From assembly GCF_023015695.1 (NCBI RefSeq), contig NZ_JALKAS010000001.1, positions 2,418,001 to 2,482,000 of the forward strand: 64,000 nt of DNA. The letters run 5' to 3'. The notes beneath the pieces are model-generated. The model was not told where the DNA came from and did not search any database. It saw only the letters and a list, made by a program, of their open reading frames with translations. This document shows, in pieces, positions 11,683 to 57,007 of this stretch. Each line of letters begins with the position of its first letter. Positions within the stretch are counted from its first letter, which is position 1. Position numbers and translations under genes: made by a program. The DNA comes from Jannaschia sp. S6380. GTDB taxonomy: Bacteria; Pseudomonadota; Alphaproteobacteria; Rhodobacterales; Rhodobacteraceae.

Positions 11683-11700
11683 GGCGCCCGACGGGGCGCC
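11683..11700. terminator. Stem-loop between convergent-spaced minus-strand genes
   Basis: GGCGCCC at 11683-11689 and GGGCGCC at 11694-11700 form a perfect seven-base stem with a four-base loop, downstream of the SDR gene. Only a weak T-rich stretch follows on the plus strand and none on the minus, so termination is possible but unproven. Confidence 0.35.
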
Positions 11701-11730
11701 CTCATCTTTGCCCGGCGACTTAGCGCCCGT

Positions 11731-12582: not shown

Positions 12583-12734
12583 GTCGGTGGCTCCGTCGTC
12601 GTTTGCAGGGTCTGGCGGCAGAACCCGCGCGGCGGCGTGCTTGTTCCGAACGCCCCCCGCCCCCGACGGTCAGGGAACCGATCCATGTCGGGGCGCGCTG
12701 TCTTCGGACGCAACCAATGCGATGGAGCATTCCG

Positions 12735-32944: not shown

Positions 32945-33332
32945 CTCGCCTTCGCCGGCGAATCCGCGGGGTGGGGAATTCCACAGCTTCTTGTTTCCGA
33001 CTCGAAACACACCGTTGCACAAATGGTGACGGCCACCTCTGCGGGCAGGTAATTACAACGTCATAATATCAACATGTTAGCGACGTATTTGATCCGGTCG
33101 ACACGGTTTTTGCGACCGTGATCCGGCGGGATCGGACAGGACAAACTGTTTCCCCGGACACCGAATTATCCGGGTCGATTGCCCCCAAATGGGAGTAGCT
33201 GCCCAAACGTCAGGTAGGGATGATTGTGGCGTGGATGCGGCGACAGTTTGCCGATCCTGACTTTACGTCATTCCGCCCGGTCCCCGGGTGGGGGGGCCTT
33301 TTTCAGATACCAAATTTTTTGGGGGAAGACAC
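32945..33332 (+). promoter_or_regulatory. Long AT-richer leader of the RTX gene
   Basis: These 388 bases hold no gene. The middle (33050-33110) is AT-rich with TCATAATATC near 33061, a possible -10 region. An imperfect stem around a run of five T lies at about 33095-33125. The length suggests a long 5' untranslated leader. It ends with a terminator-like hairpin and a GGGGGAAG ribosome binding site before the RTX ATG. Confidence 0.45.
33279..33303 (+). terminator. Terminator-like hairpin in the RTX leader (possible attenuator)
   Basis: GGTCCCC (33279-33285) can pair with GGGGGCC (33292-33298; one T-G pair), followed by five T at 33299-33303. It sits 30 bases before the RTX start codon, so it either ends transcription from upstream or controls read-through into the RTX gene. 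Confidence 0.5.
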
Positions 33333-35435: not shown

Positions 35436-35490
35436 TCACAACATGGGATCGCGGACCGCAGCATCGGCGGCGGTCCGCACCACGAAATCC

Positions 35491-35516
35491 GACACCGCCC
35501 CCTTGGGGGCGGTGTC
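35491..35516. terminator. Strong bidirectional stem-loop between RTX genes
   Basis: GACACCGCCCCC at 35491-35502 is exactly complementary to GGGGGCGGTGTC at 35505-35516. It lies between the convergent RTX and CAP-RTX genes, with a mild T-rich tail on the plus strand. It likely terminates both transcripts. Confidence 0.7.
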
Positions 35517-35526
35517 TTCGTCTGGG

Positions 35527-36735: not shown

Positions 36736-36908
36736 GTGTCCAACAGTCCCTTGTTCTTGGCGCGCATCAGTTGGGGCCAAGGCCCCGTCGTCGCAATTCC
36801 GCGCGCGCGCGCCGTCGATTTCCGGCACGATCACGCGAGGGCTGGGCGAAACTCTGCCGTTTTGATGACCGAAACAGGGTGTACCGTCGCCGGAAACAGG
36901 AGGGCGAA

Positions 36909-40837: not shown

Positions 40838-43522
40838 TCAGCGCCGGCCGATCCAGACCTCGCGATCGGCGTCCCATCCATAGCGACCGGCCCAGGTCAC
40901 CCGCAGCGGTCCGCGACGGAGCGACAGGTTGGTCCCTGCGATCTTCACCGCCAAATCGACCGGACTGGGGGCCGAGGCGAAGTCCAGAAGCGGCCCGACG
41001 GGAACGCGGAAGCCGGGCCCATTCTCCGGCAGGTCCGGGCGCGGATGGCAGGGCAGGAAGCGGCCCGCGAACTTGCCGGCCACATGCAGGCTCAGCGGCA
41101 CGTCGCGGTGGTCGCCGGACCGGGCCCAGCCCGACAGATGCCCGTCCGACAAGCCGTCGATGACGCCGTCGAACTGCGACCGGGCCAGGGCCACCTCCTG
41201 ATCCTCGTCCGACGCGATCATGACATGCGAGGAGACGTGGCGGACGAAGCTCTCGCCGCCCTCGTTCGCGCCTTCGGGCTCCAGCGTGATCTCGACGTCG
41301 CGGACCCGCCCGCCCTCGTCGTCCAGGACCTCGTTCAGATCGAAGGGCAGGAAGTAGACCGCCCGCTGCGTGGGCACCAGCAGCGGAACGAACGGATGCC
41401 GGATGCCGGCCAGATCGACCTGGAACAGCACCCGCCCCCCGGACCGCGCGACCAGCCAGCGTCGCGGCCCGTCCGCGCGCGGCAGCAGCGGCTCGGGCAC
41501 GTGCAGGTAGAAGCCGTCGCCGGCCAGGTCGAGAATCTCGAGCGCGGTGTCCGCCCGCCGCCCGGGGCCCGATTGCGACCCCGCACGCAGCAGCTTGGCC
41601 ATGCGCCGCCGGCCGACGGATCCGGCGCGAAACTCGGGGCGGGCGGAGAAGTAGAAGTCGCAGCTCAGGCCCATCTGCCGCTCTGCCTCGATCACCATCT
41701 TGCGGTAGAGGCCGTTGTAGAATTCCGGCTCCGCCTCGACCCAGGGTTTCCGCTTGCCGGAATAGTGGATCAGGCTGGCGTCGACCTCGGCGTATTTGCG
41801 GACGCGCAGGGGGTCGGCGATGCACCGGTCCGACAGGTAGTACTGCGTCATGTAGTTGTACTTGCTCGACAGCAGCATCTTGCGGCCGGCGAAGGCGATG
41901 TTCATTGCGTCCTGGTCGCGCTGCTTGAGCGCGGAGGCGAAGTTCATCACCATGCTGCGCGCCTCCAGCGCCATGCGGTGATAATCGGGGTTGTCCAGAT
42001 CCATGATCAAGACGCCGCCGTTGATATACTGCTCAAGCCCACCCGACCCATGGGTGATGCCCTGCAGGCGCGTGGACTGTTCCGGCGGGACGGTGTCGGG
42101 GTCGTGGATCGCGCGCAGCGCGGCGCTGTCGGGCACGCCGGCCAGGCAGGCGCCCTGCAAGTCCATCGTGAACAGTTCCGAGAAGTCGCGCGTGGCCAGG
42201 ATGTCGCCGTCCAGATAGATCGTCCGCTGGCGTGGCAGATAATCAATCAGATAGATCCGTCCGAAGGTCGCACGCTTGGGGTCGCCGCGGCCGATGTCGC
42301 GGTCCAGGTCCTCGGTGATGTCCTGGCAGATCACCTCGACATCGACCTGCGCCAGTTCCAGCGTCTTGAACTTGGCCACCGAGGTCTCGGTCAGACCGTC
42401 GCCCAGGACGACCATCCGCGTCCGCCCCAGATGCCCGATCTTGGAGAGCACCGAGAGCTGCGTCGCGAAGGTCGCGCTGGCGAAGTTCTCGTCCGTAACG
42501 AAGGCGAACTGGAAATCCACCCGGTCGCGCGGATCGGTGGGGGCGACGGGTGCCAGCGTGTCGGCCGCGGCGGGCAGGGCCAGCGGACCCTCGGTCGCAC
42601 CCCCCAGATCCACCTCTTCCAGCAGCCCCGCCTCCGTCAGCTTGGCGATGGTGGGCTCCGGCAGCGAGAAGAACTCCGCGAAGAAGGCCCGCTGTTCCGC
42701 CTCGGGCTTGCTCATCTCGGCGATGAACAGGTGCAGTTGCAGCCGCCGCTTTGCCAGAAGACCCCTGGCCAGGGCCCGGCCGTCGGCGCGATGCGCCCAT
42801 TTCGCCTGCCAGGTCGAAAAGCTGCCATGGTCGTAATGCAGGATGCGGCCGTCCTGGTCGTCCAGCGCCATCGCCCCGTCCAGCAAATTGCCCGACTTGG
42901 GCCCGTGCACCGTCATCTCGCCGGCCCTGAGCGGCAGCGCGTAGATCGCCTTGCCCGTCCGGTGCCCCAGCAACCCGCGTCGCAGCAACTGGCTGCGCCA
43001 GCCCATCAGCTTGGGCCAGGCGATCTTCTCTTCGTCCTCGGTCGGGCGCAACGCCAGCCGCGCGCCGAACGGGTCGTCCAGCGACTCGGTCCCGTCGCGC
43101 CACATTTCGCGCACCGGCAGGGTGACGGCAGGGGTTTGCTCGCCCACGGCCTCGGCGATCTCGGACCAGGGCGCGGCCAGCTGGATCAGCTCGTCGGCAT
43201 CGACGAAGGCCAGATGGTCGAACCCGTCGGCCCGCGCCAGCCGCGCGGCCCAGCGGAACCCGTCGGTCTGCTTGCGCTCCACGTTCAGGTTGCGCTGACC
43301 GTATCCGCCGACCCAATCCTCCTGCCCCACCGGCAGCCAGCGGATCCGCGGATCCTCGGGCAGCGCGTCCGTCAGGCTCGTATCCGGGCGGTCCAGCAGC
43401 ACATAGAGCCGCGCCGCGCCGTGGCTCAGATGGTAGTTGCACCAGCGGACGATCTGCGCCGGATGTCCGGCGAACATCGTGTAGATGGCAAGCGTGTCCA
43501 GGTTGCTGTCCATTGCGTCCAT
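40838..43522 (-). CDS. Large two-domain glycosyltransferase (GT2/GT92-like plus GT8-like)
   Basis: The 894-residue protein carries two catalytic-like regions. The N-terminal one (about 10-240) starts LAIYTMFAGHPAQIVRWCNY and holds a DxD-type FVDADELI at 107-114, as in GT92/DUF23-like enzymes. The middle one (about 335-600) is GT8-like, with FAFVTDENFASATFATQLSV and TIYLDGDILATRDFSEL (DxD near 441). The remaining 240 residues are beta-rich with no motif I recognise. It should build or decorate a surface glycan. No membrane segment is present. It lies on the same strand as the sulfotransferase, 28 bases downstream of it, so they are probably co-transcribed. Confidence 0.85.
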   Translation of the reverse strand: MDAMDSNLDTLAIYTMFAGHPAQIVRWCNYHLSHGAARLYVLLDRPDTSLTDALPEDPRIRWLPVGQEDWVGGYGQRNLNVERKQTDGFRWAARLARADGFDHLAFVDADELIQLAAPWSEIAEAVGEQTPAVTLPVREMWRDGTESLDDPFGARLALRPTEDEEKIAWPKLMGWRSQLLRRGLLGHRTGKAIYALPLRAGEMTVHGPKSGNLLDGAMALDDQDGRILHYDHGSFSTWQAKWAHRADGRALARGLLAKRRLQLHLFIAEMSKPEAEQRAFFAEFFSLPEPTIAKLTEAGLLEEVDLGGATEGPLALPAAADTLAPVAPTDPRDRVDFQFAFVTDENFASATFATQLSVLSKIGHLGRTRMVVLGDGLTETSVAKFKTLELAQVDVEVICQDITEDLDRDIGRGDPKRATFGRIYLIDYLPRQRTIYLDGDILATRDFSELFTMDLQGACLAGVPDSAALRAIHDPDTVPPEQSTRLQGITHGSGGLEQYINGGVLIMDLDNPDYHRMALEARSMVMNFASALKQRDQDAMNIAFAGRKMLLSSKYNYMTQYYLSDRCIADPLRVRKYAEVDASLIHYSGKRKPWVEAEPEFYNGLYRKMVIEAERQMGLSCDFYFSARPEFRAGSVGRRRMAKLLRAGSQSGPGRRADTALEILDLAGDGFYLHVPEPLLPRADGPRRWLVARSGGRVLFQVDLAGIRHPFVPLLVPTQRAVYFLPFDLNEVLDDEGGRVRDVEITLEPEGANEGGESFVRHVSSHVMIASDEDQEVALARSQFDGVIDGLSDGHLSGWARSGDHRDVPLSLHVAGKFAGRFLPCHPRPDLPENGPGFRVPVGPLLDFASAPSPVDLAVKIAGTNLSLRRGPLRVTWAGRYGWDADREVWIGRR

Positions 43523-43550: not shown

Positions 43551-44600
43551 TCAGGGGTCCGCCGGGGCAGCGACGACCGGCGCGAGGGCCATCTCGGCGG
43601 CGCGGGCCTTGCCGCATTCGGCGATCACGTAATCCAGGAAATCCGCCAGCACAGCGCTGTCGACGGGGCGGGGCGCGGGCGTGGCCACCGCCTTGCCGAA
43701 GCGCAGACCGGGCACCGGCCGGTCGAACCATTCCGCCTCGATCCGGGCGTTGATCGGGTCGCAGACCTCGTGGATTGCGTCGCGGATGGCGTCGGTCATC
43801 AGCGGCACGTCGATATCGGGCGCCGCCTCGAAAAAGCGCCGCGCCAGCGCGATCCGCGCCTCGCGGTCCGACAGCCGCGCCGCATTCAGGATGCGCAGCG
43901 CGACGGTGTCGATCGGCCGGACGGAATCGTAGCGTTCCACCGGCATGTCGGCCACCCGGTCCAGAAGCGCCGCGCCGGCCCCCGCCAGGGTCAGGATCTG
44001 GCGGCACAGGTCGTCGGCCCCGTCGCAATCGTCGTAGGACATGACATGGAAGTTGTTGGGCCCCACCAGGTCGCGCCATTCCGAGAACCGGCTGTGAAAA
44101 TCGAACAGCTCCGCCCCTTCGGATGCGACGAATTCGGCGAAGGAGCGGGTCTCGTAGTCGATGAACCCGTCGACCAGCTGCTTGTAGTAGCTCTCGATCC
44201 AGACATCCTGCCGGCGCAGGACCAGAACCACCTTCACCGACCGGAACATCGACAGCCGCGACAGGTAGTTCGCCGGCGGCGTCGGTCGCTTCCAGATGGT
44301 GAAGTTCTCGGACGACAGGATCACGCGCTCGATCCCCGGCGGGCACTCGTCGACGATCTCGGCGATGGCGGGCATCGCCGCCTTCTCGCCGCGCGTCAAA
44401 AGCGCGTGGCCCGATTGCGCGCCGTCGCGCGTGGGCGTCCAGCTGCGCATCACCTCGCCCGCGCGGGGATAGATGATCCCGTCGGTCAGCAGGTGATACC
44501 GCAGCGCGGACAGCTTGTTCTGGATGTAGGTGGTGGCGGTCTTGTGCAGGCCGATATGCAGAATGACGTCAATTTCCGCAGCCTTCTTCGATGCGTTCAT
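43551..44600 (-). CDS. Sulfotransferase-like P-loop protein
   Basis: The 349-residue protein has HIGLHKTATTYIQNKL at residues 15-30, the 5'-phosphosulfate-binding loop of PAPS-dependent sulfotransferases. A later RRQDVWIESYYKQLV segment fits the 3'-phosphate-binding region. It probably transfers sulfate to a surface glycan in the cytosol. An AGGG-type site lies before the ATG at 44600 and a TTG two codons earlier is possible. It precedes the two-domain glycosyltransferase. The PAPS it would need could come from the APS-kinase-like gene at 51113 or from a housekeeping enzyme elsewhere. Confidence 0.8.
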   Translation of the reverse strand: MNASKKAAEIDVILHIGLHKTATTYIQNKLSALRYHLLTDGIIYPRAGEVMRSWTPTRDGAQSGHALLTRGEKAAMPAIAEIVDECPPGIERVILSSENFTIWKRPTPPANYLSRLSMFRSVKVVLVLRRQDVWIESYYKQLVDGFIDYETRSFAEFVASEGAELFDFHSRFSEWRDLVGPNNFHVMSYDDCDGADDLCRQILTLAGAGAALLDRVADMPVERYDSVRPIDTVALRILNAARLSDREARIALARRFFEAAPDIDVPLMTDAIRDAIHEVCDPINARIEAEWFDRPVPGLRFGKAVATPAPRPVDSAVLADFLDYVIAECGKARAAEMALAPVVAAPADP

Positions 44601-44793
44601 CCGCAACCCTTCGCGTTCGACCGTCCCTCCCGCCGTGTCCTGTCACAAATTGCTAATGCAAGAAAGAGGGATAGCCCCGCATGGCGTGAAACCGCGCCCT
44701 TTGCCGGAGGGCTGGAACATCGGCCCCGGGGCCGCTAGCTGCATCCATCGAAATCCATCGAAGACCCGCGACCGCGGGGCGAGGAAACGCAGA

Positions 44794-46212
44794 ATGACGA
44801 CACAGCCGGGCGACCGGGCCGACGTGAAACCGGCCCATTCCGTGCAGGCAGCCATCGACGCACATGGCGACGCGCCGGTGATCCTTGTCTGGGTCGCGTC
44901 CAAGCCACGGATCGCCACGATGCGCCCGATCGCCCGGTCGCTGCGAGAGGCGGGTTTCGCGACCGTCGTTGCCTATTCCCCCAGCCTCGGCCCATCCGCT
45001 GCGAAGGACTTGCGCGGAACCGATTGCCTTCAGATCCCGCCGGAGCGCCTGTGCGACCTGCGCGGGGTTTCGGTGTTCCTCTCGGCCGAGCAGAACGCCG
45101 CGCTCGGGCCGCTCGACGCGATCCGCTTCGCGATCCACCACTCATTGCCGGACTACGACCTGCGGCGCGACTATGGCCATCTGCTGGCCGGCAAGCCGCT
45201 GGCCGTGGCGGCGGCGGATTACTACGCGATCCCCGTGCGTCAGGCGCCCGACGACTGGACGGTCGCGAACTACGGTCCGCATGTCGACCGGCTCCTGCCG
45301 CCCGCGCTCCTCGAAGGGCGGCCCGACAGGTTCGTGGTGGTCCCCTTCGGATATCCCAAGGTCGATCACATGATGCAGGAGGAGACCGCCGACCGGCCGC
45401 TCGACACGATCACCTATGCACCGACGCAGACCGTGATGTCGTTCAGCTCCGTCGAGCGGAAGGGCGCGCGGATCCTGAAGATGCTGCTGCGCAACTTCCC
45501 CGACCACCGCATTGCCTTCCGGCCCTATCCCGGCCCCGACCTCAAGCGCCTGGCCGGTCTAATCGACCAGTTCCGCGACAACCCGCGCTTCGTCCTCGAC
45601 GACAGTCCGACGGGCGAGGACCTGATGCGCCGCACCGCGCTGGTTGTCACGGACCGCTCCTCCATCGCGATGTCCTTCGGGCTGGGCTATGCGCGCCCGG
45701 TGGCGTTCTTCCGGGCGGCCGGCCTCGTCGGCAAGCGCGACGCCGAGATCGAGGAGGTGGCCCCAATCGGCCTGCGTGCCGGATCGGTCAACGCGCTGCG
45801 CAAGGCGGTGCGCCGGCTGCTGGCCAACCCGCAGGCGATCGCCGACCGGATCCGGCGCGAACGCGGCGACCACATCTGCAATCCCGGTCGGTCGACGGAC
45901 TACCTGGTCGAGATCATGCCCGACATCATCGCCGGCCGGACCCGGCCCGAATGGCTGACCGTGCCCCGCCGGCCCTTTCCGGGCCGGAGTCACGGAAAAC
46001 GGGCCGCGCAGTTCGACGCGATGATGACCAAGCTCTCCGGCCACCACAGCCGGATCCCCGTCATCATCGAGGAGACGCTCCGCCAGGGTTTCCTGTCCGA
46101 CACGCCGTCCCCGAGGGCGAACCCGGTCAGACTGTCATGGGCGCGTTTGACTCGAAGAATGTCAGATCTTCGACGCTATCTATCTCGCCCCAGGGGCCGA
46201 CCGAAGGAATAG
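44794..46212 (+). CDS. CDP-glycerol glycerophosphotransferase-like protein
   Basis: The 472-residue product has a GT-B-like C-terminal half. ITYAPTQTVMSFSSVERKGA, FRPYPGPDLKRL and LVVTDRSSIAMSFGLGYARP resemble the TagB/TagF-type CDP-glycerol:polyol phosphotransferases. That group moves a phospho-alcohol from a CDP carrier onto a polymer. Gram-negative bacteria use relatives for capsule and lipopolysaccharide phosphodiesters. GAGGA lies nine bases before the ATG. Its last 86 bases overlap the convergent cytidylyltransferase gene. In context it is a candidate transferase for the CDP-linked group made by the minus-strand operon. I am sure of the family type, less of the substrate. Confidence 0.75.
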   Translation: MTTQPGDRADVKPAHSVQAAIDAHGDAPVILVWVASKPRIATMRPIARSLREAGFATVVAYSPSLGPSAAKDLRGTDCLQIPPERLCDLRGVSVFLSAEQNAALGPLDAIRFAIHHSLPDYDLRRDYGHLLAGKPLAVAAADYYAIPVRQAPDDWTVANYGPHVDRLLPPALLEGRPDRFVVVPFGYPKVDHMMQEETADRPLDTITYAPTQTVMSFSSVERKGARILKMLLRNFPDHRIAFRPYPGPDLKRLAGLIDQFRDNPRFVLDDSPTGEDLMRRTALVVTDRSSIAMSFGLGYARPVAFFRAAGLVGKRDAEIEEVAPIGLRAGSVNALRKAVRRLLANPQAIADRIRRERGDHICNPGRSTDYLVEIMPDIIAGRTRPEWLTVPRRPFPGRSHGKRAAQFDAMMTKLSGHHSRIPVIIEETLRQGFLSDTPSPRANPVRLSWARLTRRMSDLRRYLSRPRGRPKE

Positions 46213-46870
46213 CCTGGATCTCCATCCGGCGTCCCACCAGCAGGTCCAGGAGCGCGGTCATGGTCAGGCTGTCGCGGTCCTCGGGCGACAGGGCGCGGTG
46301 CACCTGCTGCGCCGCGTTCCAGCCCGACGGCGTGAACCGCAGCAGGCCCATATACTGCCCCTCGACCTCAGCCAGGCTGCGCGGGCGTCGGCCGATCTCG
46401 CGCAGGACGGACCGGCCGCCGCGCCCGGGCGCCAGGCGGAACGTCTCGGCATCGTCGAGCGGGTCCTCGAAGCGGCCGGACCATTGCGTCTCCCAGTCCG
46501 GATCGTAGCTGATGGCCAGGTCGGCTTCCGCCTCGGCCAGCGCGCCCACGGTTTCGGGCTCGTAGAAGATGTCCGAATAGCTCACGATCAGCGGGGCCTG
46601 CGACAGCCATTCCGCCGCCATCGCCATCGACTGCACCATCTGCGTCTCGGCCCAGCGGTCGTTGTGGAAGGTTCGGTCGGCATAGGGCGCCAGGCTTTCG
46701 GCGCGGTATCCGGTGACGATGCCGATCTCTGTCGCGCCGGCGGCGCGCAGCGCCTCGCACTGGCGCGCAACCAGCGGCTTGCCGCGCAGCGGGGTCAGGC
46801 CCTTGGGCCGGTCTTGGGTCATATGCCGCATGCGCGAGCCGCGGCCGGCAGCAAGGATGAGAGCCTTCAT
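46127..46870 (-). CDS. Cytidylyltransferase-like sugar/aminoalcohol nucleotidyltransferase (Cj1416-like)
   Basis: The 247-residue protein starts MKALILAAGRGSRMRHMTQD and continues RPKGLTPLRGKPL, the nucleotide-binding signature of LicC-like and sugar-1-phosphate nucleotidyltransferases. SYSDIFYEP holds the metal-binding Asp. By family and length it fits C. jejuni Cj1416, the CTP:phosphoglutamine cytidylyltransferase, as well as choline-phosphate cytidylyltransferase. Context decides for the former: it overlaps by four bases an amidotransferase and follows a PEP-synthase-like gene, as in the Campylobacter phosphoramidate locus. It is the last gene of a six-gene minus-strand operon. Confidence 0.78.
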   Translation of the reverse strand: MKALILAAGRGSRMRHMTQDRPKGLTPLRGKPLVARQCEALRAAGATEIGIVTGYRAESLAPYADRTFHNDRWAETQMVQSMAMAAEWLSQAPLIVSYSDIFYEPETVGALAEAEADLAISYDPDWETQWSGRFEDPLDDAETFRLAPGRGGRSVLREIGRRPRSLAEVEGQYMGLLRFTPSGWNAAQQVHRALSPEDRDSLTMTALLDLLVGRRMEIQAIPSVGPWGEIDSVEDLTFFESNAPMTV

Positions 46871-47478
46871 GCGATTATCCTTCGAAAACGGTCGATATCG
46901 TCCGGGTCGGGTCGCGTTTCACGTTCGGGATGCCACATCCACCCTTCCCAGGGCAGGTCGGAATGGGCGATGGCTTCGATGGTTCCGTCCGGGGCATGGG
47001 CCAGGGCACGATAACCGGCGGGCGTACCCGACAAGGCCACGGCATGGAAGCTGTTCACTTCCCGCGCGATCTCTCCGGCCAGACGGTGCCGACAGGCGAC
47101 ATGCCCCGCGACGGGGACGAGCGGCGTTCCCGCCGCGTGCGCCATGTATTGCAGCCCCCGGCAGATTCCAAGGACCGGCCGACGATCTTCCGCTGCGTAA
47201 TTCAGCAGGCCCGCCTCCAACGTGTCGCGTGCCGGATCACGCCCGATATCGGCCCCGCCCGACAGCAGCACCGCATCGGGCCCGACCGCCGCGAGCCAGG
47301 CGACAAGGCCGTCGGCACCCAGCGCCGAAGGCACCGGCACCGGCAGGCCGCCCGCCGACAGCACGAATTCGGCCAGCCGCACGTCCAGCGCGTCCCGGAT
47401 CTCGTCATGGGGTGGGCCGGTCGGGTCCCGCCGCTGCGAGACGGCGATGACCGGCCGGGATGCGGCGCGGGCGGTCAT
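46867..47478 (-). CDS. Class I glutamine amidotransferase (Cj1417-like gamma-glutamyl-CDP-amidate hydrolase)
   Basis: The 203-residue protein shows a class I amidotransferase triad: Cys106 in LGICRGLQYM, His183 and Glu185 in MWHPERE. LLSGGADIGRD is the glycine-rich loop of this fold. No synthase domain is attached. Family, length and the neighbours point to Cj1417 of C. jejuni, which frees cytidine diphosphoramidate from CDP-L-glutamine. The start is the ATG at 47478, which overlaps the next gene upstream by four bases. A gamma-glutamyl-GABA hydrolase role is the alternative but lacks any supporting neighbour. Confidence 0.78.
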   Translation of the reverse strand: MTARAASRPVIAVSQRRDPTGPPHDEIRDALDVRLAEFVLSAGGLPVPVPSALGADGLVAWLAAVGPDAVLLSGGADIGRDPARDTLEAGLLNYAAEDRRPVLGICRGLQYMAHAAGTPLVPVAGHVACRHRLAGEIAREVNSFHAVALSGTPAGYRALAHAPDGTIEAIAHSDLPWEGWMWHPERETRPDPDDIDRFRRIIA

Positions 47479-49820
47479 GCGACCCGCTCGACCCGATGGC
47501 CCGCGCAATCCAGCCGCAGCCGCCGGGCGGACGACCACCGCTTGAACAGCGCCTCGCCCGCGCCGATGACGGCGGGCAGCTGCAACTCGCCCGCGCGGAT
47601 CGCCATATGCGAATTGACGCCGCCATAGGCCGTGACCAGCCCCCCGATCCGGTGCGAGAACAGCCAGTCATAGCCCGGGTCGGCGCTGGGGATCAGGACG
47701 ATGGCGCCTGCCAGGTCGGCGGGGCGCGCGCCGTTCTCGGCCAGCGTGACCACCGGCCCGGTCACCGCGTTCTGGGTGACGAAGTTCGGCTCCGCCTCGG
47801 AAATCCGGAAGGCGTGCACGTCCGAAGGCGCCGTGATCAGCGAGGGCAGCCAGACGCGCTCGGTCTCGGCGAAGCGCCGCCGCCCCTCGGCGATGGAATG
47901 GGAAATGACGTCGGCGGGGTCGTCGGTGCGCGCGGCCAGGTCCGCCACCACGCCGATATGGGCGTAGGACAGGTCGTCCTCGCTGAAGCCCAGGGTGCGG
48001 CCCCATTCCGAAAAGATCGCCAGCGCGTCCGACAGGTTCCGGGTGAAGACGAACTTGGCATATTCGCGCATCTCGATCCCGGCATGCAGGAACTCCATCA
48101 GTTCCACCACGCCCAGCGACAGGCGATGCGCGCCCAGCAGGTCGCGGATCTGGCGCATCTGGCGCAGCGACAGTCCGAACTCGGGCGCGCGTGCCGCCGT
48201 CTCGCCGGGTTGGGCTTCGGCACCCAGATACCGGTCCGGCATCTCGTCGTAACGCGGCGAGCGGATGTCATAGGTCCCCGGCCGCAGGTGCCCGTACCGC
48301 GCCAGGAAACCCGGCCGGTCCAACTCGGCCACGTCGCGGGCGAACTGGCTGGAGACGGTGTCGATGGAATGCATGAACCGCTGATAGTCGTCCTCGCTGA
48401 ACACGCCCGTCGCGACCAGCGAACGCAGCAGCTGCACCGCCATGAACCCCGCGCGCGCCAGACCCGCGAAGGGCAGCGTCCCATAGCGCCGACAATCCTC
48501 CAGCAGCCAGTAGATCCGCTCCTGCGGGCCGAGGTCGGAGGTCGTGATCCGCTCGTGCCGGGCGCGCAGGGTGTCGATCTTGCGCGCGTCCGTGCGCCAC
48601 AGGCCGGTCTTTCGATGGATGACGGTGTTCGTCAGCCGGCGTAGCGATTTCAGCACCGCCTTGCGGTCCTTCGCGTCGAGCCCCGCGTCCCCCAGCGCCC
48701 CGATGCGGTCCGGCAGGTCGAGGGTGTAGCAGGAATGGACGATCTCGAACTCGATCTTGTCGTGCAGCGCCGGCGCCCGGATCAGCCGGTCGACATAATG
48801 GTCGACCAGCCTATCGGCGATCGCGTCATCCAGATCGGCCGGGATGAAGGAGTTGAACGACAGGCGCACGTCGACATAGGGCTGGCCCGCGAAGGACTGC
48901 ACCAGCGGGAAGCTGCGCAGGTTGCGATAGCCGTAGTTGTGGCGCTGATAGGCCCAGGTCGCGTCGGTCACGAGGTTGCGGTAGAGCGACAGCGCCAGCG
49001 GACGCGGCCGGGTGCCGATGATCTCGGCCGGGTTCCAGTCGGGCATGTTGCCGAACACGGTGGAGCTGCCGCGCAGATAGGGATGCGGGCGCTGCGCCTC
49101 GGCCACGCGTGCGGCGATCCTGTCCAGGACCGCGCCATGCTCGCCCACGTCCATCGCCGCCCGCGCCCCGCTCAGGACCAGCGGACGCGCCTGCAGCAGA
49201 TAAGGCACCGTTCCGTCCGCCCCGGCGCAGATGGCGTACTCGATATCGAGCGGGCGGTCGGGGATCAGCGCCTCCAACTCCTCCAGTAGGGCCAGAACGG
49301 GGGCGATCTCCTCGGGCACGGCCGCCGCACCCGGGGCGATCACATGCGTCTCGACCCCGTCCTTGCCGGCGGTGACGGCCGTGGTGTCCGCCCCCCGCTG
49401 CAGGCTGACCACGCGGTAGGGCGCGGCCGTCGTCGGGTCATGGGTGAACGCGACCCCCGACAGCAGCACATCCGCCAGCATCGGCTGGACCATCACCGCA
49501 TCGCCGTCCGACAGCCCCGCGCCGAAGGACGCGAAGACCTCGGCGATCGCCGCTTCCAGCGCGCCTTTCCCGCAGACGTCCAGGATCGACGCATAGGCCC
49601 CCGCCTGCGAAGCATCGGCCGCGTCCTCCCCAAGTGCCGAGGAGCGCACGATCAGCGCCGCCTTCGCCCCGAAACGGTCGAGGACACGGGTGACCGCCCC
49701 GGGCCCGTCTGTCTGCCATTCGTTCTGCGTCACCCGCTCCTGCGGCAGGATCCGGGCCGTGCGGAGCAGCGGCGCAAGGTTCTGAAGCGTCTCCGATTTC
49801 GTAGAAAGGATCGCGGTCAT
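47475..49820 (-). CDS. PEP-synthase-like phosphotransferase (Cj1418-like L-glutamine kinase)
   Basis: The 781-residue protein has an N-terminal PPDK-type ATP-grasp domain (ALIVRSSALGEDAADASQAG, about 55-74; LLQARPLVL near 210). A long middle part of about 450 residues resembles no other domain I know. The C-terminus is a phosphohistidine swivel domain, GGVNSHMAIRAGELQLPAV, with its His at position 738. There is no PEP-binding TIM barrel, so it is not PEP synthase. C. jejuni Cj1418 has this length and layout and makes L-glutamine phosphate from ATP and glutamine. The gene overlaps neighbours by four bases on both sides. Confidence 0.8.
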   Translation of the reverse strand: MTAILSTKSETLQNLAPLLRTARILPQERVTQNEWQTDGPGAVTRVLDRFGAKAALIVRSSALGEDAADASQAGAYASILDVCGKGALEAAIAEVFASFGAGLSDGDAVMVQPMLADVLLSGVAFTHDPTTAAPYRVVSLQRGADTTAVTAGKDGVETHVIAPGAAAVPEEIAPVLALLEELEALIPDRPLDIEYAICAGADGTVPYLLQARPLVLSGARAAMDVGEHGAVLDRIAARVAEAQRPHPYLRGSSTVFGNMPDWNPAEIIGTRPRPLALSLYRNLVTDATWAYQRHNYGYRNLRSFPLVQSFAGQPYVDVRLSFNSFIPADLDDAIADRLVDHYVDRLIRAPALHDKIEFEIVHSCYTLDLPDRIGALGDAGLDAKDRKAVLKSLRRLTNTVIHRKTGLWRTDARKIDTLRARHERITTSDLGPQERIYWLLEDCRRYGTLPFAGLARAGFMAVQLLRSLVATGVFSEDDYQRFMHSIDTVSSQFARDVAELDRPGFLARYGHLRPGTYDIRSPRYDEMPDRYLGAEAQPGETAARAPEFGLSLRQMRQIRDLLGAHRLSLGVVELMEFLHAGIEMREYAKFVFTRNLSDALAIFSEWGRTLGFSEDDLSYAHIGVVADLAARTDDPADVISHSIAEGRRRFAETERVWLPSLITAPSDVHAFRISEAEPNFVTQNAVTGPVVTLAENGARPADLAGAIVLIPSADPGYDWLFSHRIGGLVTAYGGVNSHMAIRAGELQLPAVIGAGEALFKRWSSARRLRLDCAGHRVERVA

Positions 49821-50572
49821 GCGTCACCTCGGCGGCCACCATGCACGGCCAGATGCTTCAGAACCGGGTGGACGACGTAGTACGTCACGCCCGCCTCCTT
49901 GGGGTCGACCTGCGCGCGGGGCCACTCGCCGGTTTCGTGGAACGCGTTCAATACCGCACAGAGGACATCGGCGCGCGCCGCGCCATCGTGCAGATGGTCC
50001 AGATGCGTGCGGTCGGGCGGCGCGGCATAGCGTCGACGCAGCAGCACCGGCCCGGCATCGATCTCGGCCGTCATGAAGATCGCCGAGGCGCCCAGCGTCC
50101 CCTCGGCCAGCAGGCTGTAGTAGTTCGTCGTGCTGCCGCGGAACCGGGGCAGATAACCGCCATGCACATGCAGGAACCGCTTGCCCAGCCCCAGGACCGG
50201 TGCGCGCAGGATCTGGCCGCCGAACCCGGAATAGATGACCGTATGGCCGGGCAACGCGGTCAGCGCATCGCATGTCGCGGGCGCGTTCACGTCTGCCTCC
50301 TCCAACCGCTCGACCGGCGCGCCCAGATGCGTCAGATCGTCACTGATCCGCGTGTTCGGGTCGAATCCGGCCGTCTGCCACAAGGGATCGCGGGCCGCCC
50401 AGGCGGGCGTCGCCGCCAGATCGCTCGCCTGCCCGGCCAGACGCATGCCCCCGCCCGACAGGACCAGCACGCGCGCCGGCCGCAGCCCGGCGCGCGCCAT
50501 GTTCTGCAGATAGGCGCGGCTGCGCGTCGTGTCCGCGCAAAGCATCGAGACGCCCGCCAAGTCACGCCACAT
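49817..50572 (-). CDS. Formyltransferase-fold protein
   Basis: The 251-residue product has HVHGGYLPRFRGSTTNYYSL at about 135-154, the hallmark of Fmt/ArnA-type formyltransferases (His-x(3-5)-LPxxRG with the Asn). ASAIFMTAEIDAGPVLL is the second conserved region. The N-terminal Rossmann half is divergent. Known members use N10-formyl-tetrahydrofolate to formylate an amine. It sits between the unknown 184-aa gene and the L-glutamine-kinase-like gene and overlaps both (11 and 4 bases). Its substrate may be an amine of the glycan or of the phosphoramidate itself. The ATG at 50572 or that at 50545 may be used. Confidence 0.75.
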   Translation of the reverse strand: MWRDLAGVSMLCADTTRSRAYLQNMARAGLRPARVLVLSGGGMRLAGQASDLAATPAWAARDPLWQTAGFDPNTRISDDLTHLGAPVERLEEADVNAPATCDALTALPGHTVIYSGFGGQILRAPVLGLGKRFLHVHGGYLPRFRGSTTNYYSLLAEGTLGASAIFMTAEIDAGPVLLRRRYAAPPDRTHLDHLHDGAARADVLCAVLNAFHETGEWPRAQVDPKEAGVTYYVVHPVLKHLAVHGGRRGDA

Positions 50573-51116
50573 CGCGCAGCCCCCGTTCCATCTCGTCCAC
50601 GGCAGCGATCTCGGCGGCGATGGTACGGGCGAGATCCGCGCCGACTTCGTACCTGCGCGCAGCGGGTTGCGAGATCAGCAGATCGTTCAGTTTGAACAGC
50701 GCGTTCAACCAGGGCAGGTTCCGCCCGCCCCCGACGCCATCGGCCAGCAGGACGGCCAGGCGGGCGTAGCGCGTCAGATCCCGATAATCGCCCGCCCCCT
50801 TGCGCAGACCCGGATCGTAGCGCGGATGGATCCGTTTCGTCACCTCGAACCGCTGGACCAGCCGATCGATCCAGGCCGGATCAGGGCGTGCCTCCAACGT
50901 TGAGAGCAGATCATCCGTCTCGATCCCGGCATCTTCCGCCGCGGGAAGGCCCGCATCGCGGCCCCGTCGCGCGCAGGCCCCGTCGGGCAGGCCGGCCCGG
51001 ACGCGTTCGCGCGCAGTCCGCCAAGCCTCCAGGAATTCCGGGCCGCCCAGCGCGCTGTAGTGATAGTGCTCGCGATCCTCCAGCAGGTCGCGGTCGGTAT
51101 AGGGATAGCCGCTCAT
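50562..51116 (-). CDS. Unknown 184-residue protein in the phosphoramidate-type operon
   Basis: The protein starts MSGYPYTDRDLLEDREHYHY and is mostly hydrophilic and helical by eye. A cluster of Tyr and His lies in the first 22 residues, and a conserved-looking IHPRYDPGLRKGAGDYRDLT segment sits in the middle, followed by FKLNDLLISQP. No P-loop, methyltransferase or known catalytic motif is visible. It overlaps the kinase gene by four bases and the formyltransferase gene by 11, so it is translated with both. I do not recognise a family. It is a good candidate for a missing step or a complex partner. Confidence 0.7.
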   Translation of the reverse strand: MSGYPYTDRDLLEDREHYHYSALGGPEFLEAWRTARERVRAGLPDGACARRGRDAGLPAAEDAGIETDDLLSTLEARPDPAWIDRLVQRFEVTKRIHPRYDPGLRKGAGDYRDLTRYARLAVLLADGVGGGRNLPWLNALFKLNDLLISQPAARRYEVGADLARTIAAEIAAVDEMERGLRDVA

Positions 51117-51622
51117 GCGTCGATGATCCTTCGTGCCAAATCGTCGGCATGCGTCAGCAGGGCCCGCTGGTCGCCATCGTTGCGGATCCGCAAATCGGGC
51201 GCATCGGGGGCCGCGAAGGGCAGGTCCAGCCCGGCGACCCCCTCGATTTTCCCGGCCTCGAACCGGGCATAGAGGCCCTTGCCGTCGCGCGCGCGAAGCT
51301 GATCCAGCGGCGCATCGACGAACACCTCAAAATAGCCGGGCACGTTCGCCCGCATCCAGGCGCGATGCTCGGGGAACAGCGACAGGATGGCGCAGATCAC
51401 GTGGATGCCCTGCCCGTCCAGCCAGGCGCACAGCCCCATGATCCGCTCGGCGTTCCGGCGCCGATCCTCCATCGTGTGGCCCAGGTCGTTGCCGAAGGCC
51501 GCGCGCACGGCATCGCCGTCGACGACCACGACATCGGGCCGCGCGTCGCGCGCGATGCGCGCCACCTCCTCGGCCAGGGTGCTCTTTCCGGCGCCGGACA
51601 GGCCGATGATCCAGATGACCAT
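51113..51622 (-). CDS. APS-kinase-like kinase (Cj1415-like CDP-amidate kinase candidate)
   Basis: The 169-residue protein has Walker A GLSGAGKST (7-15), VVVDGDAVR, and the conserved KGLYARFEAGKIEGVAGLDL segment of CysC-type kinases. AAGGAGG lies ten bases before the ATG at 51622, although the frame is open further up. No ATP sulfurylase is nearby. C. jejuni Cj1415, also annotated as an APS kinase, phosphorylates the 3'-hydroxyl of cytidine diphosphoramidate. Here the three partner families are in the same operon, so that role is favoured. Supply of PAPS to the sulfotransferase at 43551 is the main alternative. It is the first gene of the operon, 88 bases after the glycosyltransferase. Confidence 0.78.
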   Translation of the reverse strand: MVIWIIGLSGAGKSTLAEEVARIARDARPDVVVVDGDAVRAAFGNDLGHTMEDRRRNAERIMGLCAWLDGQGIHVICAILSLFPEHRAWMRANVPGYFEVFVDAPLDQLRARDGKGLYARFEAGKIEGVAGLDLPFAAPDAPDLRIRNDGDQRALLTHADDLARRIIDA

Positions 51623-51710: not shown

Positions 51711-53651
51711 TCAGCCGGGAAGCCGCGCCAGCAGGCCGCGCAGGACGGCCTCAGCATCCGGGTCCAAGGGGCACAGCCGCGCCCGCAGATCCGCCGGCAT
51801 CATGTGACGCTCGGCGATCAAGGTGGCCTCAGCGGCATCGATCGTCACCACCGCCGAGAGAATATCGAAATGTCGATAGACCTCGCCCAGCGCTGGGCCG
51901 GAGGGATGCCCGAACATGTCGATCCCGTTGCGCGGAAGGCAGCCGATGATCGGCACGCTCGCCGCGAGCGCGCGGCCATAGGGCTGCAGGGCCCGCCACG
52001 CCAGGTCGGGACCCGCCACCAACAGGGCCGCCGGCCCCAGCGACCGGATGACGTGGATCAGCGCGCGCTCGCGTTCGGGTTCGGGCAGACCCGCGGCCGC
52101 GGCGTGCAGGTCGACATGCCGGACGCCCACCGGCAGGCCCGGCGGGGCCGCACCGTCGCCCATTACCACGACCTCCTCCGGCCCCGCGATCCGGGCCAGC
52201 GCGGCGATCACGTCCTGCGCCAGGGCCGCGGCGTCCGCGTCCAGCGTCACCACGAACCGGGCCGTCCGGTGCGCCGCCTGTGCCTGCGCATGCGCGACCG
52301 CGGCCACGCGCGACACCACCAGGTCGGAATGGAAGGGCGGAATTTTCAGCGCGAAGATCCGCGGCCAGACTTGCGCGATCAACGGCTCGATCCGCGCGGC
52401 ATCGGCCACCATCGCGCCCAGCGTGCCATGGCGCAGCCGCGACAGTACCTCGGCATGGCGCGCCTCGAGCAGGTCCTGCACCTTGCGCGGCGCCAGGCCG
52501 ATCAGATCGGCCACCTCCTCGAACCGGGCGAAGGGGACGGTGACGTGGCCCGCGCGCCGCCCGTGCCGCAGCCAATGGGCGAGCGGCCCCTCGGGGTCGC
52601 GCCCGGCCTCGGGGTGGCGCCCGACATAGCGGCGCGGCCCGAAATAGCGTGCGGGCCGCCGGTCCTCCGCCAGACCGCGGCGGATGAAATGTGCCACCGG
52701 GTCCAGACGGCGCGCCCGGAACAGATCCTCATTCACGGCCAGGTAGTGATGCAGGTCCATCGCCGCGCGCAGGGCGGCGTATTGCGGCGCATCCCGCTCG
52801 GGCGTCGGATCGGCGTCGGCCGCCTGCCGGACGCGTTCGTCCAGCGCAGACCCGTCATGCGGCGTATCCCCGGCAAGGGACGGCGCCGGTGGCCCGCCAC
52901 GCGGCCCCGCGATCCGCCCCAAATCCGCGACGCGGTCGATGCGCAGCGCCGGCAGATCCCGCACCAGCGCGCGCCTCCCCTGGCTCTCCGTCACCAGCGA
53001 CCGGGGCCGGCGACGCTTGAAGATCACGGTGTCGCGGGCGGTGGCGTGGAACCATCCGGCCGCGGTCGTCTCGACGCTGAATTGCCAATCCTGGAAAGAC
53101 AGCCCCGCAGGAATGTCGCGCCCGGCATAGGGGATGGCCGCATGCGCCGCGCGCGGGGCCATGCACATCGAGTCGTAGTAGTTCATCGCGTAGAAATAGC
53201 GCGGCGTCCAAAGCGGATCGTCCTGCGCCGGGTTCCACACCACGTCGGCGGCGCCATCGAAGATCCAGTTCACCTCCGGATGCGCGATCACGTGCCGCCC
53301 GTCCCGCGCCGCTGCGTTCAGCAGCCGCACGCCTTCGACGAACCAGTTCCAGCTGACCAGGTCGTCGGCATCGACGAAGGCCAGGTTCCGCCCGGCCGCG
53401 CGCGCGGCGGCCGCGTTGCGCGCCGCCCCCAGATCGCCCGCCGTCAGCGTCAGGCGGTCCCACCCCTCCAGCGGCAGTTCCGCGAAATAGTCCGCGGTGT
53501 CCGGCGTGGCCGCATCCAGCACCAGTATCGTCTCGACGGTCAGGCCGGCGGCGCGAGCCACGGCCACCGCATCCTCGACCGCGCGCAGGGTCGGGCCGGC
53601 CACCAGCGTCTCGTCATGGGCGGTCAGGATGACGCTCAGATCGACGGTCAT
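51711..53651 (-). CDS. Large family 2 glycosyltransferase
   Basis: The 646-residue protein begins MTVDLSVILTAHDETLVAGP, the GT2 nucleotide-sugar site. LAFVDADDLVSWNWF (DxD) lies near 110 and a catalytic-region segment PAGLSFQDWQFSVE follows. The C-terminal 400 residues include an LNPVAHFIRRGLAEDRRPARYF-like segment (as DPVAHFIRRG) often found in glycan-assembly proteins. The ATG at 53651 has GAGGGC upstream. It is 13 bases downstream of aroC and 88 bases upstream of the kinase gene, so it could be part of the same transcript as the phosphoramidate-type operon. Confidence 0.83.
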   Translation of the reverse strand: MTVDLSVILTAHDETLVAGPTLRAVEDAVAVARAAGLTVETILVLDAATPDTADYFAELPLEGWDRLTLTAGDLGAARNAAAARAAGRNLAFVDADDLVSWNWFVEGVRLLNAAARDGRHVIAHPEVNWIFDGAADVVWNPAQDDPLWTPRYFYAMNYYDSMCMAPRAAHAAIPYAGRDIPAGLSFQDWQFSVETTAAGWFHATARDTVIFKRRRPRSLVTESQGRRALVRDLPALRIDRVADLGRIAGPRGGPPAPSLAGDTPHDGSALDERVRQAADADPTPERDAPQYAALRAAMDLHHYLAVNEDLFRARRLDPVAHFIRRGLAEDRRPARYFGPRRYVGRHPEAGRDPEGPLAHWLRHGRRAGHVTVPFARFEEVADLIGLAPRKVQDLLEARHAEVLSRLRHGTLGAMVADAARIEPLIAQVWPRIFALKIPPFHSDLVVSRVAAVAHAQAQAAHRTARFVVTLDADAAALAQDVIAALARIAGPEEVVVMGDGAAPPGLPVGVRHVDLHAAAAGLPEPERERALIHVIRSLGPAALLVAGPDLAWRALQPYGRALAASVPIIGCLPRNGIDMFGHPSGPALGEVYRHFDILSAVVTIDAAEATLIAERHMMPADLRARLCPLDPDAEAVLRGLLARLPG

Positions 53652-53664
53652 GCCGTCCGGGCCC

Positions 53665-54768
53665 TCACCCGATCCGTCCGCCCGCATCGCCCACCTGCCC
53701 GCGATGCAGCAGCAGGTGATCAAGGATCACGCAGGCCATCATCGCCTCGGCCACGGGCACGGCGCGGATGCCGACGCAGGGGTCGTGGCGGCCCTTGGTG
53801 ACGATGGTGGTTTCCTCGCCCGACTTGGTGATCGTTCGCCGCTCCGACAGGATCGAACTGGTCGGCTTGACCGCGAACCGCACTACCACGTCCTGCCCGG
53901 TGCTGATCCCGCCCAGGATGCCGCCCGCGTGGTTCGAGGAATAGACCGGTCCGTCCGGGCCCATCGCGATCTCGTCGGCATTGTCGCGTCCGGTCAGGCG
54001 GGCGGCGTTCATGCCCTCGCCCACCTCGACGCCCTTGACCGCGTTGATCGACATCATCGCCGCCGCCAGATCGGTGTCGAGCTTGCCGTAGACCGGTGCG
54101 CCCAGCCCCGCGGGCATGCCGCGCGCCACGCACTCGATCACCGCGCCGACCGAGTTGTGGTCGTCCTTCCGCAGCCAGTCGAGATGTTCGGCGAAGGTCT
54201 GCGCCGCCTGCGCATCGGGGCACCAGAAATCGTTGCGGCCGATCTCGTCCCAGTCGAAGCGGTCGCGGTCGATGTCCAGCGGCCCCATCGCCACCATGTA
54301 GCCGGTCACCCGGATCTGCGGCGCCAGCACCGACAGGGCCGCCCGCGCCACACCGCCTGCGGCGACACGCGCCGCCGTCTCGCGTGCGCTTGACCGGCCG
54401 CCGCCGCGATAGTCGCGGATGCCGTATTTCTGCCAGTAGGTGATATCGGCATGGCCGGGGCGGAATTTCTCGGCGATCTCGCCATAGTCCTTCGACCGCT
54501 GGTCGGTGTTGCGGATCAACAGCTGGATCGGCGTGCCGGTCGTGACCCCCTCGAACACACCCGACAGGATCTCGACCGCGTCGGGTTCCTTCCTCTGCGT
54601 CGTGTGCTTGGACTGGCCGGGCTTGCGCGCGTCCATCCAGACCTGCAACGCCGCCTCGGTCACGGGCACGCCGGGCGGGCAACCATCCACCGTCGCCCCC
54701 AGCGCCGGCCCATGGCTCTCGCCCCAGGTGGTGACGCGAAAGAGATGGCCGAAGGTGTTCAGGGACAT
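53665..54768 (-). CDS. aroC: Chorismate synthase
   Basis: The enzyme removes phosphate from EPSP to give chorismate, with reduced FMN. The 367-residue protein starts [20 protein letters not shown], the classical AroC signature, and has [20 protein letters not shown] and the [13 protein letters not shown]-site segment. AGGAG precedes the ATG at 54768; the frame is open 34 codons further but AroC never starts there. It is the upstream neighbour of the glycan locus on the minus strand. There is no sign it is related to the glycan function. Confidence 0.96.
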
Positions 54769-55608: not shown

Positions 55609-55905
55609 ATCTCAGATGGCTTTCGCTAAACTCTATACGGATTGCCGCTGTCGGGAAACAGAATCAACTTTGCAAAGATCGTTTACTGCGCATAACTGCC
55701 GTTTGGGCTAGATGGAGCATCAGTTAGTTTGGAATCCAAGCAGACCTCCGCACCCCCGGATGCGAGACGCGCGCTTCGCTGACCGACGATCGTCTGCCGC
55801 ACCAAACCGCCTTACCTGATGCCGATCATGCGCCAATTGCTGTGGCGCCGACCCCCCTCTCCGTCTCTCGGGGCTGGACGGCGGGACGCCGGGGGCCTAT
55901 CCAAG
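55609..55905. other. Right flank of the AT-rich island and start of the thi leader
   Basis: Nearly 300 bases without a gene. The first 130 bases remain AT-rich like the orphan gene; after about 55740 the composition returns to GC-rich. The last part must hold the promoter of the thiamine transport operon. No repeat or attachment site was seen. Confidence 0.45.
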
Positions 55906-55990
55906 CCTTACCTCGGGGGGCCTTCCAGGGCTGAGATGCTGTCAAGCGGACCCGTTGAACCTGAACCGGTTAAGACCGGCGGAGGGAAGG
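55906..55990 (+). promoter_or_regulatory. TPP (THI-box) riboswitch
   Basis: The core shows CCAGGGCTGAGATG, ACCCGTTGAACCTGAACCGG and TTAAGACCGGCGGAGGGAAGG, the near-invariant TPP aptamer elements. P1 is formed by CCTT-A-CCTC (55906-55914) with GAGG-G-AAGG (55982-55990). It lies 45 bases before the thiB ATG, so thiamine pyrophosphate likely shuts off thiBPQ, by sequestering the start region or by termination. Confidence 0.96.
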
Positions 55991-56035
55991 TGCGATATCT
56001 CACCCCACCCCGTCCGTCGCATGTGGGAGAGAGAC

Positions 56036-57007
56036 ATGAGATCCACCATCGCAACGGCCCTGACCCTGCTTGCAAGCCCCGCGCTGGCACAGCCCCTGAC
56101 GGTCTACGCGCCCGACTACTTCGCCTCCGAATGGGGCCCCGGCCCCGCGATCGAGGCCGCGTTCGAAGCGTCCTGTGCCTGCGAGATCGAATATGTCACC
56201 GGCGACGTGCTGCCGCGCCTGCGGCTGGAAGGCACGCGCACCCGCGCCGATGTGGTGATCGGCCTGAACACCGACGATGCCGAAGCCGCCCGCCAGACCG
56301 GCCTCTTCGCGCCGCACAATGTCGATGTCCGGGGTCTCACCATGCCCGTCGACTGGACCGACGCGACCTTCGTGCCGTTCAACTGGGGTCACACCGCCTT
56401 CGTCTACGACGCCACCCAGATCGACCCGCCCGAAAGTTTCGCGGCCCTGCTCGACGCCCCCGACGACCTGCGCATCGCGATCCAGGATCCGCGGACCAGC
56501 GTGTCGGGCCTGGCGCTCGCGCTCTGGATGCACAAGGTCTTCGGCGAGGACGCGACCGAGGCCTGGGCTGCGCTCGCCCCCAAGGTCGTGACGGTGACGA
56601 AGGGCTGGTCCGAGGCCTACGGCATGTTCACCGAAGGTGAGGTCGATATGGTGCTGAGCTACACCACCTCGCCCGCCTATCACATCATCGCGGAAGGCGA
56701 CGAGACGAAGAAGGCCGCGATCTTCCCCGAAGGCCACTACGTCATGGTCGAGACCGCCGGTCAGATCGCCACGACCGATCAACCCGAGCTGGCGCAGGCC
56801 TTCCTCGACTTCATCCTGACCGAGGAGTTCCAGTCGATCATCCCCGAAGGCAACTGGTCCCTGCCCGCCAGGCTGGACCCGGCGAAGATGCCCGAGGGCT
56901 TCGCCAAGCTGGACCTGCCCGAGACCGCGCTGATCTACGACAGCGCCGAGGCGGAGGCGCTGCGCGACACCGTCGTGGCCGAATTCGAGGCCGGGCTGGG
57001 CCGCTGA
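56036..57007 (+). CDS. thiB: Thiamine ABC transporter, periplasmic binding protein
   Basis: A 323-residue binding protein with a signal peptide of about 18 residues (ending SPALA). The mature part starts QPLTVYAPDYFASEWGPG. A DVVIGLNTDDAE segment, PFNWGHTAFVYD and GWSEAYGMFTEGEVDMVLSY match ThiB. It binds thiamine or its phosphates in the periplasm and delivers them to ThiP. GGGAGAGAG precedes the ATG, right after the TPP riboswitch. The next gene starts one base after its stop. Confidence 0.95.
   Translation: MRSTIATALTLLASPALAQPLTVYAPDYFASEWGPGPAIEAAFEASCACEIEYVTGDVLPRLRLEGTRTRADVVIGLNTDDAEAARQTGLFAPHNVDVRGLTMPVDWTDATFVPFNWGHTAFVYDATQIDPPESFAALLDAPDDLRIAIQDPRTSVSGLALALWMHKVFGEDATEAWAALAPKVVTVTKGWSEAYGMFTEGEVDMVLSYTTSPAYHIIAEGDETKKAAIFPEGHYVMVETAGQIATTDQPELAQAFLDFILTEEFQSIIPEGNWSLPARLDPAKMPEGFAKLDLPETALIYDSAEAEALRDTVVAEFEAGLGR

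Follow-up and report, generated by a model that had tools for sequence, protein, structure and literature searches.

Which product does the six-gene operon in this 64,000-nucleotide stretch of Jannaschia sp. S6380 (the window) make, and how closely does it follow the phosphoramidate pathway of Campylobacter jejuni? The operon runs on the minus strand from 51622 down to 46127, in a genome of 3.5 Mb (G000) given as 99.96% complete. Its genes follow the order K-U2-F-GlnK-GAT-CYT (Table 1), and every neighbouring pair overlaps, by 4 bases for K/U2, 11 for U2/F, and 4 each for F/GlnK, GlnK/GAT, and GAT/CYT. All six open reading frames (ORFs) reported in a first-pass annotation are present at the coordinates and lengths it gave, and Pfam and PDB searches agree with its family calls for the kinase (K), the phosphoenolpyruvate (PEP)-synthase-like protein (GlnK), the amidotransferase (GAT), and the LicC-like protein (CYT). 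Judging from sequence, its product is probably a nucleotide-activated phosphoramidate whose tailoring dispenses with the usual methyltransferase. What is new is a common bacterial cassette, of which this operon is a version that has no methyltransferase, a kinase from a separate clade, and the two companion proteins U2 and F.

In C. jejuni, the genes cj1415-1418 for O-methyl phosphoramidate (MeOPN) and the transferases Cj1421 and Cj1422 are established (PMC11800397, PMC3907429, PMC3546167), and the reactions of Cj1415-Cj1418 leading to 3'-phospho-cytidine diphosphoramidate are in print (PMC11800397, PMC3907429). Cj1419 and Cj1420 are given no function there (PMC11800397). Orthologues of cj1416-1418 occur in 13 of 30 Campylobacter strains (PMC3907429), and a 2022 review terms the glutamine kinase 'C. 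jejuni-specific' (PMC9561416). In the accessible open-licence literature, we found no paper on the cassette outside Campylobacter, on alternation of the methyltransferase with U2/F, or on U2. The window resembles C. jejuni in having, by annotation, the same four enzyme families, with GlnK-GAT-CYT contiguous and glycosyltransferase genes adjoining. It differs in having no match to the cassette methyltransferase, in having the extra U2 and F, in the GT-B fold of its candidate transferase, and in a kinase that falls into a separate clade with those of other U2/F loci. Therefore, the initial proposal of a Campylobacter-type pathway stands for the core, by homology and linkage, but the operon is not simply the Campylobacter pathway, because K-U2-F takes the place of a methyltransferase.

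The only Pfam families found in GlnK are PPDK_N and PEP-utilizers, indicating that it has no PEP barrel. It reaches 901 bits against NF004508/PRK05849 (cut-off 501), a model titled only 'hypothetical protein'. A protein search with GlnK yields 6252 proteins at E 0.001 among 8000 candidates scored, and some of the 120 relatives listed bear the JGI name 'glutamine kinase'; the sequence supports placing GlnK in a family with members so called. All 17 aligned relatives keep the swivel residue His738, and the GAT triad Cys106/His183/Glu185 is invariant in 20 aligned sequences, as the first-pass annotation would predict. GAT matches Peptidase_C26 and GATase in Pfam. Its best NCBIfam model is NF045546, gamma-glutamyl-CDP-amidate hydrolase (CDP, cytidine diphosphate), at 73.5 bits, with the cut-off at 250, and this model matches 20 of 20 cassette GATs tested. 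CYT matches NTP_transf_3 (PF12804, 67.6 bits), and its top PDB match is 1jyk, a cytidine triphosphate (CTP):phosphocholine cytidylyltransferase. None of Cj1415-Cj1418 is named among the PDB matches of the operon proteins. The window thus has the features of the donor pathway, namely a GlnK with PPDK_N and swivel His, a linked GAT with its triad, and a linked LicC-like CYT. Homology and linkage make a phosphoramidate pathway the best reading of this core.

The cassette is widespread across bacteria and rare in the host's family. A scan of GTDB species genomes for GlnK gives at least 590 pattern matches, 542 of them encoding a relative, counted as stretches rather than distinct species. We compared 84 loci, including the best 80 from the scan; L021 and L028 are identical, so that 83 distinct loci remain, all chosen by GlnK alone and some cut by contig ends. 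Profiles find CYT in 81 of them, GAT in 81, and K in 75 (81, 73, and 74 when non-overlapping genes are chosen). The phyla represented include Pseudomonadota, Cyanobacteriota, Verrucomicrobiota, Planctomycetota, Bacillota, Spirochaetota, and Acidobacteriota. GlnK-GAT-CYT, nearly always with K, occurs in Pseudomonas, Aeromonas, Azospirillum, Prochlorococcus, Paenibacillus, and many uncultured lineages; Treponema has GlnK, GAT, and CYT without K. The core genes recur jointly in loci of several phyla, which is more than chance would give. In addition, K and GlnK form one ORF in seven loci (L071, L080, L082, L088, L092, L094, and L099; in each, the methyltransferase lies downstream of CYT), GlnK does so with a CYT-like domain in L023 and the roseobacter plasmids L127 and L128, and U2 and F do so in L024 and L167, arguing that these enzymes act in one pathway. 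The cassettes of Pseudomonas, Aeromonas, Azospirillum, and Prochlorococcus (L030-L107, L129) have homologous GlnK, GAT, and CYT in similar order; those of the GlnK-K-methyltransferase type among them differ from the window in having an S-adenosylmethionine (SAM) methyltransferase and kinases outside the U2/F clade. At 8140-12766, L127 and L128 have GAT, CYT, and a GlnK extended at its N terminus by an additional cytidylyltransferase-like domain.

Within the family, GlnK is found at E 1e-60 in 3 of 394 genomes, the window's own included. Among 19 other genomes of the same genus searched, G011 alone encodes a GlnK that passes the family cut-off; its operon lies on a 7191-base contig identical in sequence to a contig of Jannaschia donghaensis, a species of Roseobacteraceae. 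The distribution of the operon is patchy. Patchy distribution is common for surface-glycan genes.

K belongs to the APS_kinase family (PF01583, 125 bits; APS, adenylyl sulfate). It reaches 141.9 bits against PRK05541 (cut-off 127), as do four other cassette kinases tested, including ones from cassettes with a methyltransferase, and it misses the cut-off of the apsK model (123.7 versus 138.7 bits). The host genome has a second APS-kinase gene, a 628-codon frame with 207.8 bits, and K is the weaker copy with 126.2 bits. In 60 genomes searched, APS-kinase copies below 130 bits occur in G000, G011, G034, and G067, all GlnK-positive, and in G060, where no GlnK lies beside the weak copy. In a kinase tree with 15 APS kinases (every second one of 30 fetched), these form one clade (100/99), and 76 of 76 cassette kinases fall outside it. 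K thus groups with the cassette kinases and not with the APS kinases tested. The sequence comparisons support K as a CysC-like kinase distinct from APS kinase. Locus L162 (contig C96 of G060) has a cassette-like kinase with 154.9 bits to the K profile and a weak sulfotransferase-like neighbour; GlnK, GAT, and CYT were all not found within the 19 kb fetched.

The tailoring part of the operon, including U2 and F, for which the first-pass annotation offered no interpretation, sets it apart. A SAM methyltransferase of about 250 residues is present in 61 of the 83 loci, and 35 of these have it immediately between K and GlnK. It is the putative source of the O-methyl group. U2 and F are present in ten loci, none of which has the methyltransferase, in contrast to 61 of the 73 others (Fisher 2.7e-7, uncorrected for kinship). 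In whole genomes carrying GlnK, the methyltransferase profile scores at least 242 bits (242-422) in 10 of 14 without F and in 0 of 6 with F: it has no match in F-positive G000, G011, G034, G804, and G924, and a match of only 43 bits in F-positive G557. For the host, this means no match to the cassette methyltransferase at E 1e-10 in G000 and none at E 0.01 in the window, so that by this enzyme the genome does not qualify as having an MeOPN system. Across the 20 GlnK-carrying genomes, methyltransferase and F therefore share no genome, and four have neither.

The kinases of U2/F loci form one clade of 10 rows (100/100; 100/96 with APS kinases included); L084 has no K. Their partners behave differently: the U2/F label requires 6 changes on the GlnK tree, in which L024 is a very long branch, and 6 and 5 on the GAT and CYT trees built by FastTree. 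In Pseudomonas, L039 and L040 have GlnK-GAT-CYT-K-methyltransferase, and in L036, L038, L049, and L081 F, U2, and K come after GlnK-GAT-CYT and lie on the opposite strand, with the same gene families upstream in both sets. Given the exclusion of the methyltransferase and the single kinase clade, unlike the partners, K-U2-F looks like an exchangeable tailoring module that would stand in for O-methylation. U2 and F are co-inherited with a kinase of the donor pathway and, in the 83 loci, never occur with the methyltransferase, as expected of alternative treatments of one intermediate. Genome G557 has two GlnK genes on different contigs (L160 and L126), one of them in a full K-U2-F cassette.

F matches PF00551 with 28.2 bits, just over the cut-off of 26.1. 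Like PurN, Fmt, and ArnA, it has this domain, an active-site His and Asp, and an LPxxxG segment. Unlike them, it has His where the Asn-x-His motif has Asn: aligned to PurN across the active site, the motif reads His135-x-His137, and Asp172 is retained. F thus has the formyltransferase domain but not the canonical Asn-x-His...Asp triad. The three positions, which we take to be the catalytic residues of formyltransferases, are invariant in 24 rows, and among 119 F homologues listed the motif has His in 116 and Asn in none, the remaining 3 being missed by the search pattern. Protein searches give 896 F homologues, of which 120 are listed, most on contigs of unseen context. The iterated F profile also pulls in Asn-type formyltransferases at L034 and L058, which stand apart from the cassette core. 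Phylum-wide, the F profile finds 3 of 398 genomes, all within the 15 of 398 that have GlnK and with F adjoining GlnK; in the class of G804 it finds one further genome among 369, where F again adjoins GlnK. No F was seen away from GlnK among the first-look candidates scored in these 398 and 369 genomes. U2 is present in three of the four F-carrying genomes from these searches. No Pfam or NCBIfam family matches U2 at E 0.01, and a protein search finds 13 homologues besides itself. Its AlphaFold2 model (predicted local distance difference test 86.5, predicted template modelling score 0.85) is helical, and a fold search with the model gave no informative match.

By the functions of their families, GlnK would phosphorylate the amide nitrogen of glutamine via His738, CYT would couple phosphoglutamine to CTP to give CDP-glutamine, GAT would strip glutamate via Cys106 to leave cytidine diphosphoramidate with a P-NH2 bond, and K would put a 3'-phosphate on the latter. 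This phosphate would be sensible if the transferase resembled a sulfotransferase dependent on 3'-phosphoadenosine 5'-phosphosulfate. Linkage, phylogeny, and exclusion show that K-U2-F travels as one module, in the position that K and a SAM methyltransferase occupy in many other bacteria. U2 and F, joined in one ORF in two genomes, may act together, adding in place of O-methyl another group, most plausibly a one-carbon group of the formyl type, to the phosphoramidate or its direct product. GTB, a candidate transferase convergent to the operon, or the neighbouring sulfotransferase-like protein, might then attach the group to a sugar in a surface glycan that the flanking glycosyltransferases assemble. 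The proposed end point resembles the unmethylated P-N group on the lipopolysaccharide of Xanthomonas campestris and Shewanella MR-4, a phosphoramide known from chemistry, with no gene assigned to it in the accessible accounts. A P-N surface modification outside Campylobacter, put forward by the first-pass annotation, is thus in itself already known chemically (PMC3907429, PMC3210612, PMC8042644).

Several observations weigh against this pathway or parts of it. PRK05541, the subfamily that holds K, is labelled adenylyl-sulfate kinase by NCBIfam, and the kinase tree with APS kinases carries a long-branch warning from the tool. GAT falls far short of the NF045546 cut-off and is formally outside that equivalog. 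Because F lacks the canonical Asn, formyl transfer is possibly not its reaction. U2 was not found in G804 at E 1e-5, where F and K are present; U2 is therefore not always required. Four F-negative, GlnK-positive genomes (G046, G067, G764, and G786) have no methyltransferase match at E 1e-10, and possibly make an untailored phosphoramidate or use another tailoring enzyme. In the 20 kb fetched for L127 and L128, a third, minimal version of the cassette, neither K nor the methyltransferase, U2, or F was found. These four genomes and two plasmids mean that U2/F cannot be predicted from absence of the methyltransferase alone; a product left untailored is possible. Absence of F is not exhaustive, because only some first-look candidates were scored per genome. 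Matches of the GTB model to epimerases are no weaker than those to TagF, a CDP-glycerol glycerophosphotransferase, and families like GTB are frequent in polysaccharide loci.

The strongest competitor concerns the target of F and U2, which may act on the acceptor, for example by adding an N-formyl group to one of its amino sugars, and leave the phosphoramidate itself unmodified. Amino-sugar N-formyltransferases are among the PDB profile matches of F, methyltransferase and F are both missing from some genomes with GlnK, and phosphoramidate without O-methyl is reported from X. campestris and Shewanella (PMC3907429). Against this, U2 and F are co-inherited with a kinase of the donor pathway and share none of the 83 loci with the cassette methyltransferase. 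We regard action on the acceptor as a tentative option with a minority chance. An equally tentative idea, and one more doubtful than the pathway as a whole, is a second class of bacterial phosphoramidate, in which K, U2, and F would convert CDP-amidate to a donor whose P-N unit bears a one-carbon acyl group of the formyl type, and an N-acyl phosphoramidate, in place of the O-methyl form, would end up on the surface glycan. If this were true, the module would have been swapped repeatedly into methyl-type cassettes, and methyl and acyl versions of the tag could alter recognition by phages or grazers.

Natural phosphoramidate nucleotides exist (PMC6429109), and no capsule export locus is shown in the window, no search for one having been made; the product could be a diffusible antibiotic or signal instead of a surface decoration. 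The glycosyltransferase genes on both sides of the operon, and the glycan genes flanking the relatives on the Azospirillum plasmid L129 and the roseobacter plasmids L127 and L128, make this unlikely. It is quite improbable that the product is the ordinary O-methyl phosphoramidate of Campylobacter, methylated by an unrelated enzyme whose gene lies elsewhere. A distant SAM methyltransferase could serve in trans, and SAM methyltransferases are common, but no cassette methyltransferase was matched in the nearly complete genome or in the window at the thresholds given above. Very improbable is a chance set of a sulfation APS kinase, a PEP-synthase-like protein, a gamma-glutamyl hydrolase, and a phosphocholine cytidylyltransferase, although L129 is annotated in much these terms (adenylyl-sulfate kinase, PEP-utilizing enzyme, gamma-glutamyl-gamma-aminobutyrate hydrolase, phosphocholine cytidylyltransferase), K passes the PRK05541 cut-off, and a sulfotransferase-like gene lies 6.5 kb off. 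Linkage across phyla, pairwise shared ORFs, the position of K outside the APS-kinase clade, and the other APS-kinase gene in the genome all speak against such a set.

A phosphoramidate pathway with an exchangeable tailoring module would have wider consequences. Because the cassette occurs in many genera and uncultured lineages, P-N-tagged surface glycans may be widespread. Environmental strains would become available for study of the pathway, with two candidate classes of transferase, and the methyltransferase, or U2 and F, would be gene markers predicting the form of the tag.

Glycosyltransferase domains are found on both sides of the operon, as first reported (Table 1). The GT2-domain protein, encoded 88 bases upstream of K, is possibly the first gene of the operon. 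A cassette-type sulfotransferase-like gene is present in 24 of the 83 loci, 23 of which have it immediately next to the cassette block, and in 0 of the 10 U2/F loci; the U2/F genomes G557 and, weakly, G924 have one. The profile of these cassette-linked proteins does not match the sulfotransferase-like protein of the window.

Table 1 Features of the window (aa, amino acids)
Feature	Position	Strand	Description
K	51113..51622	-	CysC-like kinase, 169 aa; predicted 3'-kinase, CDP-amidate type, U2/F clade
U2	50562..51116	-	184 aa, undescribed family, predicted all-helical
F	49817..50572	-	Formyltransferase-fold protein, 251 aa, His135-x-His137 where Asn-x-His expected
GlnK	47475..49820	-	PPDK_N and swivel domain, 781 aa; predicted L-glutamine kinase, His738
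GAT	46867..47478	-	Class I amidotransferase, 203 aa; predicted gamma-glutamyl-CDP-amidate hydrolase, Cys106/His183/Glu185
CYT	46127..46870	-	LicC-like nucleotidyltransferase, 247 aa; predicted CTP:phosphoglutamine cytidylyltransferase
GTB	44794..46212	+	GT-B-fold protein, convergent, overlaps 3' end of CYT; candidate transferase
GT2-domain protein	51711..53723	-	670 aa; PF00535, 38.4 bits
Sulfotransferase-like protein	43551..44606	-	PF17784, E 6e-4, below cut-off; weaker transfer candidate
Glycosyltransferase	40838..43522	-	GT2-like and GT8 domains (PF13704 and PF01501); surface-glycan context
Type I secretion genes	29847-36960	+	
ABC exporter	29847-31637	+	Type I secretion
HlyD-type protein	31505-32944	+	Type I secretion
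RTX protein	33288-35435	+	715 aa, 14 calcium-binding repeat stretches
ATP-grasp/Mur-ligase protein	36729-39647	+	972 aa
Thiamine pyrophosphate (TPP) riboswitch	55904-56004	+	72.8 bits
Solute-binding protein	55955-57007		ORF behind the riboswitch

Elsewhere in the window, the RTX protein adjoins the type I secretion genes. The protein with ATP-grasp and Mur-ligase domains resembles cyanophycin synthetase. The TPP riboswitch lies ahead of the gene for the solute-binding protein, which probably serves thiamine uptake.

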